Assembly: GCA_012799975.1 (NCBI GenBank)
Contig: JAAZKF010000125.1
Location: 1 to 34,109 of the forward strand
DNA from: Burkholderiales bacterium
Lineage (GTDB): Bacteria > Vulcanimicrobiota > Xenobia > Xenobiales > Xenobiaceae
Direction of reading: 5' to 3'
DNA length: 34,109 bases
Positions 8,339-11,976 of this stretch are shown here, in pieces (positions within the stretch are counted from its first letter, which is position 1; the number at the start of each line of letters is the position of its first letter). The translations under genes were made by a program, and so were the position numbers. The notes under the pieces are model-generated. The model ran no database searches, was not told the DNA's origin, and saw only the letters and a program-made list of their open reading frames with translations.

Positions 8339-8791
8339 ATGCAGAGAAGCGAGGTGGCCCAGGCCCTGGCCGAGGCCTTCTGGAACGGGTGGATCCCCAC
8401 GGAACTGACCCAGGACTACCTGGAAGCCCTGGAGATGAGCGCCATGGGCCCTCCCGCCTATGAGGAGCTGAAGGGCCTGGTCGCCGAATGGGAGTTGCAG
8501 GCCATCTCGATGACGGCCCTGACAGCCCAAGTGTCCAGCCTGGGCGAAAGCTTCCAGGCTGCGGCCGCGCGGGCCAACCAGGTGGCCGAACCCGACGAAC
8601 TGACCACCCGCTATCTGCTCTACGCACTGCGCGAGGCCTTGCGGGCCATCTCGCTGGCGTGCGACGCCATCATCAAGTCCGTCCAGGCCATGCACGGTGG
8701 GGCCCTGCAAGACGCTTTGGAAAGCGCCCGGATGGCGACCGGAGTCCTGCAGGATATCTACGCGGGAACCCACTTCGAGGAGGATGACTGA
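8339..8791 (+). CDS. Hypothetical helical protein
   Basis: Unrecognised 150-residue acidic protein, predicted almost entirely helical. It has no signal peptide, no membrane segment and a single cysteine in the C-terminal half (SLACDAI). The start ATG at 8339 is preceded by GGAGGAGGT with little spacing. The middle holds an Ala/Gln-rich helix (AQVSSLGESFQAAAARANQV). The C-terminal half (RYLLYALREALRAISLACDAI) reads like an amphipathic bundle that could oligomerise. It stands alone on the plus strand, divergent from fakA and converging on ptb with about 20 bp between stops. That gap contains the 7-bp tandem repeat CAGGATT twice. No function is proposed. Confidence 0.75.
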   Translation: MQRSEVAQALAEAFWNGWIPTELTQDYLEALEMSAMGPPAYEELKGLVAEWELQAISMTALTAQVSSLGESFQAAAARANQVAEPDELTTRYLLYALREALRAISLACDAIIKSVQAMHGGALQDALESARMATGVLQDIYAGTHFEEDD

Positions 8792-8811: not shown

Positions 8812-9735
8812 TCAGGCCTTGACCAGCCGGCAGCCCAGGGCGATCGAGTAGAGCTTGGACTCTTCTGAATCGGCCCGGCTGGTCAGCACGCAAGGTGAAG
8901 TGGTGCCGATCACCGTTCCGGCCAGGCGGGCGCCTGCCAGGTAGGTGGCTGACTTGTAGAAGGCGTTGGCCGCCTCGATGTTGGGGAAGACCAGCACGTC
9001 GGCCGCTCCTCCAACCGGAGATACCAGCCCCTTGATCGCGCAGGCTTCCGGGGAGATCGCCACATCCAAGGCCAGTGGGCCGTCCACGACAGCTCCAGCG
9101 AGCTGGCCCCGATCCCCCATCTTGGCCAGGATGGCTGCATCAGTGGTGGCGCTCATCCGCTCGCTTACCTTCTCGGTGGCCGCCAGGATGGCCACCCGGG
9201 GCTTGTCAATCCCGAAACTCCTGGCTGCGGCGATGGCGCAGTTGGTGATCTTGATCTTGGTCGACAGGTCCGGTGCCGGGATGATGGCCACGTCGCTGAC
9301 GAAGAGGAGCTTGCCGTGCATCCTCTGAAATTCGGGCATATCCAGCACAGTGATGTGGGTCAGGACCGACCCCTTGGGCAACAGGCCCTTCTCCTTGTCC
9401 AGGATCAGCCGCATGTACTTGTCCGTGCTGATCAGACCCTTCATCAGGACGTCGGCCTGCCCCGAGACCACCAGGTCCCGAGCCCGCATGCCGGCCTTGG
9501 AATCATCGGGCTCGTCCAGGATGGTGAAGGACTCGTGAGCAATAGCGAAGTCGGCGCACAGGGACTCGATGCGCTGGCGGTCGCCTACCAGGAGGAACCG
9601 GGCGATCCCTTCCCGGACCGCCTGTGCGGCCGCCTGGATCGAGTGAGGGTCGTGTCCGGCGGCAATGGCGACCTTGCGCGGAGGTTCCCCCTTTAGGCTC
9701 TCCAAAAGTTGGTCCAAGGTTCGGATGGGTTCCAT
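8812..9735 (-). CDS. ptb: Phosphate butyryltransferase (phosphotransbutyrylase)
   Basis: Reversibly exchanges CoA of a short acyl-CoA for phosphate, giving acyl-phosphate for a kinase. It is 307 aa, the normal Ptb length. Family marks along the chain are VAIAAGHDPHSI, DVLMKGLISTDKYMR, the SDVAIIPAPDL region, AILAATEKVSERM, VVDGPLALDVAIS, DVLVFPNIEAANAFYK and the C-terminal PCVLTSRADSEESKL. The start ATG at 9735 has AGGAG eight bases upstream. It lies 33 bases downstream of the fused Pta-Buk gene, so the cell has two transacylases in one transcript. Substrate chain length (acetyl, propionyl, butyryl or branched) cannot be decided. Confidence 0.92.
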   Translation of the reverse strand: MEPIRTLDQLLESLKGEPPRKVAIAAGHDPHSIQAAAQAVREGIARFLLVGDRQRIESLCADFAIAHESFTILDEPDDSKAGMRARDLVVSGQADVLMKGLISTDKYMRLILDKEKGLLPKGSVLTHITVLDMPEFQRMHGKLLFVSDVAIIPAPDLSTKIKITNCAIAAARSFGIDKPRVAILAATEKVSERMSATTDAAILAKMGDRGQLAGAVVDGPLALDVAISPEACAIKGLVSPVGGAADVLVFPNIEAANAFYKSATYLAGARLAGTVIGTTSPCVLTSRADSEESKLYSIALGCRLVKA

Positions 9736-9768
9736 GTCTTACTCCTTCTTGGATTGAGGTCCAGGTTC

Positions 9769-11976
9769 TCAGGTAGGGGAATAGGTGCGTGCCTGTTCAC
9801 GACCGGACAGAACCCGCAGGGCCCCCTTGACCAGGGCTGCCATTTCGTTCTCGCCGGGATAGACGGTCACTCCGCATCCGAAAGCAGCCAGATAGCGGCG
9901 CATTTTCTCCACCAGCAGACGGGAGCGGGCCATCCCCCCGGTAAGCAGGACCTGGTCGACCGGCTCGCCGTCAAAAGCAGGCAAAAGCGAGGTGATCTCC
10001 TTGGCGATCCGGTAGACCATGGCCTCGAAAGCCGCCCCGGCTTCCCGGTCGCCCGCCTCGACACGGCTTTCCACCTCGCGCATGTCGGCCGTGCCCAGGA
10101 GGTCTATCATACCTCCCCTACCCTTATTCAGGAGCTTGAACTCCTGGTGGGTGTAGCGGCCACTGAAGCACATGGCCAGCAACTGCCCCACAGGAAGCGA
10201 GCCCGAGCGCTGGGGCGAGAAGGGGCCCTCGCCGTCCAGGGCGTTGTTCACATCGAGGTAGCAGCCCTTCTTGTGAGCCCCCACCGAGATGCCGCCCCCC
10301 ATGTGACAGACCACCAGGTTCAGGCGCTCATAGAAGGTCTCGTTTTCCTCGGCGTAACGCCGGGCCGTGGCGAACTGGTTCAAAGCGTGGCTGATGGCTC
10401 GCCGGCGCAGGGCCTTGACCCCGGTGATGCGGGCCCTGTCAGGCAGCTCATCGACCACCACCGGGTCCACGATGAAGGCCGGTTTGTCGGTCCCGGTCAC
10501 CAGCTCGGAGGCGATCATCGCCCCCAGGTTGGAGGCGTGCTCGCCCCAACGAGCCTCGCGCAGTTCTTCCAGCATCCGGGCACCCACCAGATAGGTCCCG
10601 TGGGGAATGGGTGCCAGCATTCCGCCCCGAGCTGCCACGGCGTCCAGATCCCCCAGGTCCAGTCCCTGCTCGGAGAGAGTCGCCAGGATGGAGTCCCGGC
10701 GGAAGCGGAACTGCTCGCTCAGGGGGAGCCCCTCGAAGGGCAACAATTCCTCGGCGGAATGCTGGAGCTCGCGTGTGAAGAGTTCCTCTTCGCCGTGATA
10801 GACGCTGATCTTGGTCGACGTGGACCCCGGATTGACGGCCAGGACTCGAGGCCGGGGGAAGAAGGTGTCGCGTGGCGTGCGCTTCCATTCGGCACAGCGG
10901 TGCATCCGCAGAACCGCTGCCTTGACCGAGAGGCGGACATCCTCCGGGCTACAGTCGCGCGCCAGGCTCACCCCCCGGAACCCCAGCCCGAACATGACGC
11001 TGAAGTGCCGCGCATCGGGATGGCTGATGGCGTAGAGATGGTAGAGCATGTTCCCCATCTCCAGGTTGGGGCACACGATTACCGTGGGAGCCCCTTCCCA
11101 GGGTGCGCCTCCCGATTCGTAGAAGGTCGCCGAGCGCTGCGACAGGGCCACACTGGCCTTTACCTCGCCGCGCAGTCGGATCGACTTGAAGCGCGGCTCC
11201 ACCTGGATGCGCTTTTCCAGGATCGGTTCTAACATGGCGGAGGCCTGGCGGACCAGCTCGGGTGAGGGGCCCTCATCCAACCCCTTGTGGGAGTAGGAAA
11301 CCAGCACCCCCCGGACCACCGGCAGGACCTCCTCCGGGATCAGGTCTCTGGCCACCGCGCAAGTACCCACCGCGATCTGGGCCAGGATCTCCGGGGTTAC
11401 GGTGGCATTCACCCCGACATCCCCGAAGACCACGATGTTGTGGGGAAAGATGTCCTGGGGGTGGGAATCCGGGAGGACGAAAACCCCGGCCTCGGTGCAG
11501 AAGCCGCTGCGGTTCAGAAGCCGGGTCATGGGGCGATAATAGGCCCTGGGCTCATGCACCGCTCCGCCTACGACCATATCGGCGTGACCCAGGCGGGCTG
11601 CCATGATCCCGAAGAGGCCGGGATGACGGACGGCAGCACGGGCCTCCTCAGGGGAGACCTCACGCCCTTCGTGCCGAGTGGCTGCCTGGAAGTCCGCTGC
11701 GAACTCCTCCAGCAGGTCCGGGTTTTCCTCGGGTTCGATGAAGGCGCTTTCAGAGAGGGCGAACTCGATGCGGTTGAGGTCCAGATGGTCGAGGTCTTCC
11801 CGACAGATATGTCGGACGGCCTGCTCGGGGGCCAGGAATACGGGCCGCACGAAGCGGACCAGATGGAAGGCCGCTTCCAGGATACGGGGGTCCAGCGATT
11901 CGGTGAAGAGGACGGTGGGGCGGTTTCGGGGGGTCTGCAGAATCTGCTGATCCAGGCTGCCTTCGATATCGTACAT
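9769..11976 (-). CDS. Fused phosphotransacylase-butyrate kinase
   Basis: One 735-residue frame with two complete catalytic domains. Residues about 20-360 are a PTA/PTB domain of the kind found at the C-terminus of MaeB: HADMVVGGAVHEPRAYYRP, NIVVFGDVGVNATVTPE, LVSYSHKG and VIVCPNLEMGNMLYHLY. Residues about 377-728 are a butyrate kinase: VLAVNPGSTSTKISVY (phosphate loop), VVCHMGGGISVGAHKKG, NNALDGEGPFSPQRSG and VLLTGGMARS. Together they would convert acyl-CoA plus Pi plus ADP to free acid, CoA and ATP, or run in reverse to activate acids. The linker (HRCAEWKRTPRDTFFPRP) is short, with no stop or frameshift, so the fusion appears real. The start ATG at 11976 has a weak AAGG. A separate ptb follows 33 bases later. 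Confidence 0.9.
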   Translation of the reverse strand: MYDIEGSLDQQILQTPRNRPTVLFTESLDPRILEAAFHLVRFVRPVFLAPEQAVRHICREDLDHLDLNRIEFALSESAFIEPEENPDLLEEFAADFQAATRHEGREVSPEEARAAVRHPGLFGIMAARLGHADMVVGGAVHEPRAYYRPMTRLLNRSGFCTEAGVFVLPDSHPQDIFPHNIVVFGDVGVNATVTPEILAQIAVGTCAVARDLIPEEVLPVVRGVLVSYSHKGLDEGPSPELVRQASAMLEPILEKRIQVEPRFKSIRLRGEVKASVALSQRSATFYESGGAPWEGAPTVIVCPNLEMGNMLYHLYAISHPDARHFSVMFGLGFRGVSLARDCSPEDVRLSVKAAVLRMHRCAEWKRTPRDTFFPRPRVLAVNPGSTSTKISVYHGEEELFTRELQHSAEELLPFEGLPLSEQFRFRRDSILATLSEQGLDLGDLDAVAARGGMLAPIPHGTYLVGARMLEELREARWGEHASNLGAMIASELVTGTDKPAFIVDPVVVDELPDRARITGVKALRRRAISHALNQFATARRYAEENETFYERLNLVVCHMGGGISVGAHKKGCYLDVNNALDGEGPFSPQRSGSLPVGQLLAMCFSGRYTHQEFKLLNKGRGGMIDLLGTADMREVESRVEAGDREAGAAFEAMVYRIAKEITSLLPAFDGEPVDQVLLTGGMARSRLLVEKMRRYLAAFGCGVTVYPGENEMAALVKGALRVLSGREQARTYSPT

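Follow-up and report, generated by a model that had tools for sequence, protein, structure and literature searches.

Why does a butyrate kinase carry, at its N-terminus, a domain derived from phosphotransacetylase (PTA), with a free phosphotransbutyrylase (Ptb) gene lying directly downstream? The question is raised by a gene in the window, by which we mean the whole stretch of DNA that was analysed (34,109 nucleotides). The features that bear on it are the following.

9769..11976, minus strand: fusion gene, PTA-derived domain plus butyrate kinase, 735 aa, kept at full length in 74 other species
10906..11928, minus strand: PTA_PTB-family domain, residues 17–357, with a degenerate catalytic Ser/Arg pair (Pfam, phmmer, Foldseek)
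10954..10962, minus strand: codons of A339-R340-D341, aligned to S309-R310-G311 of MtPta, the catalytic Ser being replaced
10849..10905, minus strand: linker, residues 358–376, with a conserved R-T-P-[RK]-D-T-F-F stretch
9772..10848, minus strand: butyrate kinase domain, residues 377–735, with intact ASKHA motifs (TIGR02707, phmmer to 1x9j, family conservation)
9736..9768, minus strand: gap of 33 bp between the two genes, in which an AAGGAG ribosome-binding site precedes the start of the Ptb
8812..9735, minus strand: free Ptb (phosphotransbutyrylase family), 307 aa, with the catalytic Ser-Arg kept (TSRADSEES)

The fusion is a single reading frame of 735 codons that runs on the minus strand from an ATG at 11976 to a stop at 9769 without internal stops. 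Pfam PTA_PTB (PF01515) matches residues 17–314 with 90.6 bits (cut-off 24); this match leaves about the last 40 positions of the model uncovered, and it is there that the catalytic residues lie. In phmmer the solved Ptas align to residues 12–350. The butyrate kinase model TIGR02707 matches residues 377–730 with 445.1 bits (cut-off 289.1) and covers positions 1–350 of its 351. AlphaFold2 folded the whole chain with a pTM of 0.84 and a mean pLDDT of 84.5 from a 36-sequence alignment, and in a Foldseek search with this model the kinase half matched butyrate kinases (9a71, 1x9j) and the PTA half matched Pta and the PTA domain of MaeB. The first-pass annotation had placed a PTA domain and a full butyrate kinase in one frame, with a stand-alone Ptb 33 bp further on; the coordinates prove correct, the gene lying on the minus strand, and the domain assignment and the neighbouring Ptb hold. 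It had also named a frameshift or an assembly error at the linker as what would overturn this description. The same junction, with the same spacing, is present in independent assemblies of 74 other species, among them the isolate Geothrix fermentans DSM 14018, and neither chance nor an assembly error or frameshift can therefore explain the fusion.

How widespread the arrangement is was estimated by scanning GTDB species genomes for the PTA half, which gave at least 79 loci, a lower bound since the scan relied on two peptide patterns only. Both halves lie in one frame in 74 of them; of the remaining loci, four (L017, L077, L090 and L091) run off their contigs and in one, L059, the frame is split. 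The loci belong to Acidobacteriota (Geothrix, Holophagaceae, Thermoanaerobaculaceae), Krumholzibacteriota, Gemmatimonadales (Gemmatimonadota), Myxococcota, Oligoflexales, Spirochaetales/Treponema (Spirochaetota), Elusimicrobia (Elusimicrobiota) and UBP9, the group of the window's close relatives, so that the fusion is present in at least seven phyla. Residue counts given below refer to 75 fusions, namely that of the window and its 74 homologues. In two loci of Krumholzibacteriota (L059:6001-8226 and L082:6001-8223) the frame is broken near the start of the kinase half, part of the kinase staying in frame in L082; these breaks are probably sequence errors of metagenome-assembled genomes or real splits.

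Closer to the window, the fusion occurs in two genomes of the same genus (90–92% identity) and is interrupted by a contig end in a third. One further genome of the same family carries it at 56% identity and keeps the order of the Ptb and a DUF881-like gene. Within the phylum the fusion is found only in this family, and the other genera have stand-alone kinases. The family also holds a full-length homologue of 734 aa (L007:1489-3693, genome G007; 34–35% identity) whose frame is open and whose two halves both look dead: NPGST has become ETDAA, HMGGG has become HIDGQ, LTGGM has become LLGRA and nothing is left of the PTA motif, which would make it a double pseudoenzyme. Among 297 sampled genomes of Acidobacteriota, 75 contain a butyrate kinase, and 29 of these 75 have the fused form as scored by open-frame length alone (740–806 aa). 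A second way in which the first-pass annotation could have failed was that the fusion be common and already characterised; rare it is not, and the open literature searched gave no description of it.

Trees were built for both halves. Compared with 13 stand-alone kinases, the kinase halves of the fusions group in a single clade (support 100/99). The PTA halves do likewise (100/100); their clade has a long stem and stands apart from Pta, MaeB and Ptb. As each half forms a single clade, the data fit a single fusion event followed by spread between phyla. The long stems of the fused PTA domains and of the Ptbs may attract each other, for which reason we do not interpret the deeper branching of the PTA tree.

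The kinase half closely resembles Buk2 of Thermotoga maritima (1saz/1x9j; E = 6.5e-96 against 1x9j), which, like other stand-alone butyrate kinases, lacks a PTA half. In the window it reads NPGSTSTK, RGG, HALNQ, HMGGG, SPQRSGS, LTGGMARS and PGENEM, and the ASKHA phosphate and adenosine motifs, together with the catalytic Arg, His and Glu positions, are conserved in the 75 fusions and shared with Buk2. We infer that this half is an active butyrate kinase.

The PTA half is CATALYTICALLY degenerate. It shares with the solved Ptas (1qzt, 8fir, 6iow) the fold, a full-length alignment and the positions Arg133, Asn279 and Asp316, but where these have the motif LSRGCSxED the window has LARDCSPED. The position of MtPta S309 is occupied by Pro in 40 fusions, by Ala in 35 (Ala339 in the window) and by Ser in none. 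At R310 we find Met in 60, Ile in five, Arg in four, Leu in three, Lys in two and Ser in one, so that 71 of 75 lack the catalytic Arg, which is kept only in the window's genus, as R340, and in L076. The equivalent of Asp316 (D346) is kept in all 75. The Ser-Arg pair is intact in the free enzymes (16 of 16 Ptas and 11 of 11 Ptbs), including the Pta (L105) and the Ptb of the window's own genome, and is lost in the MaeB PTA domains compared. The fusion scores 76.9 bits against the NCBIfam pta equivalog TIGR00651, below its cut-off of 311. Given the loss of the catalytic residues, the PTA half is probably a sensor or a scaffold. At this catalytic Arg position within the fusion clade, Met is the residue in most of the family, whereas the window's genus carries Arg and its nearest relative (L062, genome G005) carries Ser.

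Loss of the catalytic pair could mean that the PTA half is falling apart, but this is ruled out by the dN/dS ratios of eight species pairs, which are 0.06–0.19 for the PTA half and 0.04–0.18 for the kinase half; both halves are under purifying selection. Within the old active-site cleft, R148 (MtPta R133), N309 (MtPta N279), D341 and D346 are invariant in 75 of 75 fusions, and K273 and Y286 are present in 74; K273, Y286 and D341 are new with respect to Pta. Several positions at which Pta binds CoA are altered (K257 to Y, K283 to H, R287 to T or I), and the Arg that contacts the 3′-phosphate in MaeB (R535, equal to MtPta R87) has no conserved counterpart in the fusions. Judged from these alignments, the cleft is re-made and conserved, without decay. 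With R535 and several CoA-binding Lys and Arg residues changed, the ligand may be something other than CoA or bind at another place; it could be a differently bound CoA ester, an acyl-phosphate or another compound altogether.

A Ptb gene is the immediate downstream neighbour, in the same orientation, of 31 fusions including that of the window (gaps of −4 to 227 bp). In 21 loci of Holophagaceae and related Acidobacteria it lies close by and is encoded on the other strand, and among the loci whose sequence continues for more than 700 bp downstream, 19 show no Ptb near the fusion. When 13 fusion genomes were searched whole, a separate Ptb-like gene was found in 12 and a separate Pta in all 13; the exception, G064 of Elusimicrobiota, yielded no recognisable Ptb. 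Both Ptbs of the Treponema genome G068 adjoin stand-alone kinases, so its Ptb count is weak evidence. Gene neighbourhood offered no other clue to function, as the remaining neighbours vary between phyla and none recurs among the loci annotated. Pathway content pointed to no particular acyl substrate: the window genome has one thiolase, which lies outside any butyrate operon, and lacks a true indolepyruvate oxidoreductase alpha. Near the Elusimicrobia fusion, a 963-aa frame (L070:1398-4286) joins ETF alpha to an HpaB/4-hydroxyphenylacetate hydroxylase-type domain. In the window itself, a frame of 150 aa with coding-like codon use (8339-8791, plus strand) lies between the Ptb and a YloV/FakA gene; it has no Pfam or PHROG match, and L016 has an open reading frame at the same place. 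Further away, at 892-2757 on the minus strand, a protoporphyrinogen oxidase homologue has about 135 residues ahead of its oxidase domain.

The closest parallel to the fusion is MaeB, a malic enzyme with a PTA domain that lacks PTA activity and serves as a sensor of acetyl-CoA (PMC7902834, PMC12704298). MaeB (E. coli b2463, B. bacteriovorus Bd1833) is likewise a catalytic enzyme joined to a PTA-family domain without the Ser-Arg pair, and its total length of about 750 aa is close to the 735 aa of the fusion. By matching chain 9kru, whose numbering plus 4 gives R535, K538, E544, Y576, R581 and N718 of PMC7902834, we find that BbMaeB N718 corresponds to MtPta N279 and fusion N309, and R581 to MtPta R133 and fusion R148; both of these acetyl-CoA-sensing positions are invariant in the fusion. 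The N718D substitution in BbMaeB abolished inhibition by both acetyl-CoA and CoA (PMC7902834). The acetyl-CoA binding sites differ between the E. coli and Bdellovibrio enzymes (PMC12704298), and a changed CoA site is therefore not unusual for the PTA fold. The two systems are not the same, however: the PTA domain is N-terminal in the fusion and C-terminal in MaeB, the partner is an ASKHA butyrate kinase instead of a malic enzyme, and the fused PTA domains form their own long-stemmed clade, so that the tree does not support their membership of the MaeB PTA clade. The window genome also encodes a separate MaeB (L113). The label "MaeB-like" in the first-pass annotation was apt, in that the domain is a non-catalytic sensor in MaeB, an aspect it had left unused.

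We favor the view, which we hold to be fairly probable, that the fusion is a hybrid butyrate kinase built like MaeB, with a catalytic kinase and a non-catalytic, metabolite-binding domain of PTA origin, and with Ptb performing the transacylation. Starting from the observed fusion and its spread, the lost catalytic pair, the kept kinase motifs, the purifying selection and the adjacent Ptb, it predicts that the kinase is active, that the PTA half is not a working transacylase, that this half binds a ligand and that it exerts allosteric control. The separate neighbouring Ptb would convert acyl-CoA to acyl-phosphate, and the C-terminal half of the fusion would interconvert acyl-phosphate plus ADP with acid plus ATP. 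The N-terminal half, as a phosphotransacetylase descendant that lost its Ser/Arg pair, would have been kept as a non-catalytic domain, which most likely binds, in the old active-site cleft, a metabolite of the pool of acyl-CoA, CoA and acyl-phosphate. By analogy with the PTA domain of MaeB, the ligand state would then be passed to the kinase and adjust it. Against this reading speak the kept Asp316 and, in the window's genus, Arg340, the altered CoA-binding positions, the 19 loci that show no Ptb near the fusion, and the genomes G064 and G068.

In the main rival reading, the dead PTA half would be a scaffold that oligomerises or docks the free Ptb, acyl-phosphate passing between two proteins without metabolite sensing. 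Dead enzyme homologues often partner the live enzyme, and Ptb is the sole recurrent neighbour; furthermore, the PTA domains of MaeB build its hexamer (PMC7902834) and Ptas form dimers (PMC10194888). We nevertheless think this unlikely, as the strong conservation of the cleft (R148, K273, Y286, N309, D341, D346) would be needless for a pure scaffold, the fused PTA domain falls outside the Ptb branch, and Ptb lies away from the fusion in many genomes and is absent in one.

The first-pass annotation had proposed a bifunctional transacylase-kinase, taking acyl-CoA to acid and ATP by channelling within one polypeptide, the free Ptb being a second transacylase for the same kinase, perhaps of other specificity. 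The full-length PTA fold agrees with this, and as Asp316 has an equivalent in every fusion and Arg340 is present in the window's genus, the PTA half may conceivably retain weak or altered catalysis. In the Treponema pallidum Pta TP0094, however, S314A left 0.30% of activity, R315A 0.07% and D321A 14.3% (PMC10194888, Table 3), so that the mutants equivalent to the losses seen here, those of Ser and Arg, are nearly dead. A Ptb with an intact motif adjoins the fusion, and the free Pta and Ptb of the same genomes keep the Ser-Arg pair that the fused half lacks. On this evidence we consider both the bifunctional enzyme and the idea of two transacylases for one kinase improbable. We give hardly any credence to a third alternative, in which the new invariant K273, Y286, D341 and K/H324 act as a different enzyme on another CoA- or phosphate-bearing substrate, for which a re-made invariant cleft under purifying selection and the long stem of the clade could speak, but for whose new activity on the PTA fold we know of no precedent, MaeB being the simpler one, for a sensor.

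Returning to the hybrid kinase, its locus also invites comparison with the clostridial ptb-buk operon, where the genes for Ptb and the kinase are similarly adjacent and co-directional. The order at the fusion locus is kinase first and Ptb second, unlike in clostridia, where ptb precedes buk, and the clostridial kinase lacks the extra PTA-derived half. Full-text searches of the open literature (subscription journals being outside their scope) found no description of a PTA-butyrate kinase fusion, in line with the first-pass annotation, which knew of none, and NCBIfam has models for the parts and none for the whole. We therefore regard the family provisionally as undescribed. As the profile libraries name the parts only, such genes will be called plain butyrate kinases or bifunctional enzymes. 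In another genome of the window's phylum (L009:580-2577, genome G033), a 665-aa protein has an ABC_sub_bind (PF04392) ligand-binding domain C-terminal to its butyrate kinase, which suggests that butyrate kinases acquired sensor-like domains more than once.

Ptb and Buk form a main ATP-yielding end step of fermentation, and to our knowledge no built-in allosteric domain has been described for a butyrate kinase. The fusion combines, in a new way, a known kinase with a known fold that here probably serves as a sensor. On balance we lean towards the broader proposal that it stands for a whole family of hybrid kinases, widespread and undescribed, whose catalytically dead phosphotransacetylase would sense the acyl-CoA/acyl-phosphate pool and gate substrate-level phosphorylation, the PTA fold having been recruited as a sensor at least twice independently, by malic enzyme and by butyrate kinase. 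If this is true, cells can gate the Ptb-Buk step by reading the pool of substrates on which the preceding step draws, and the PTA fold would be a recurrent sensor module.
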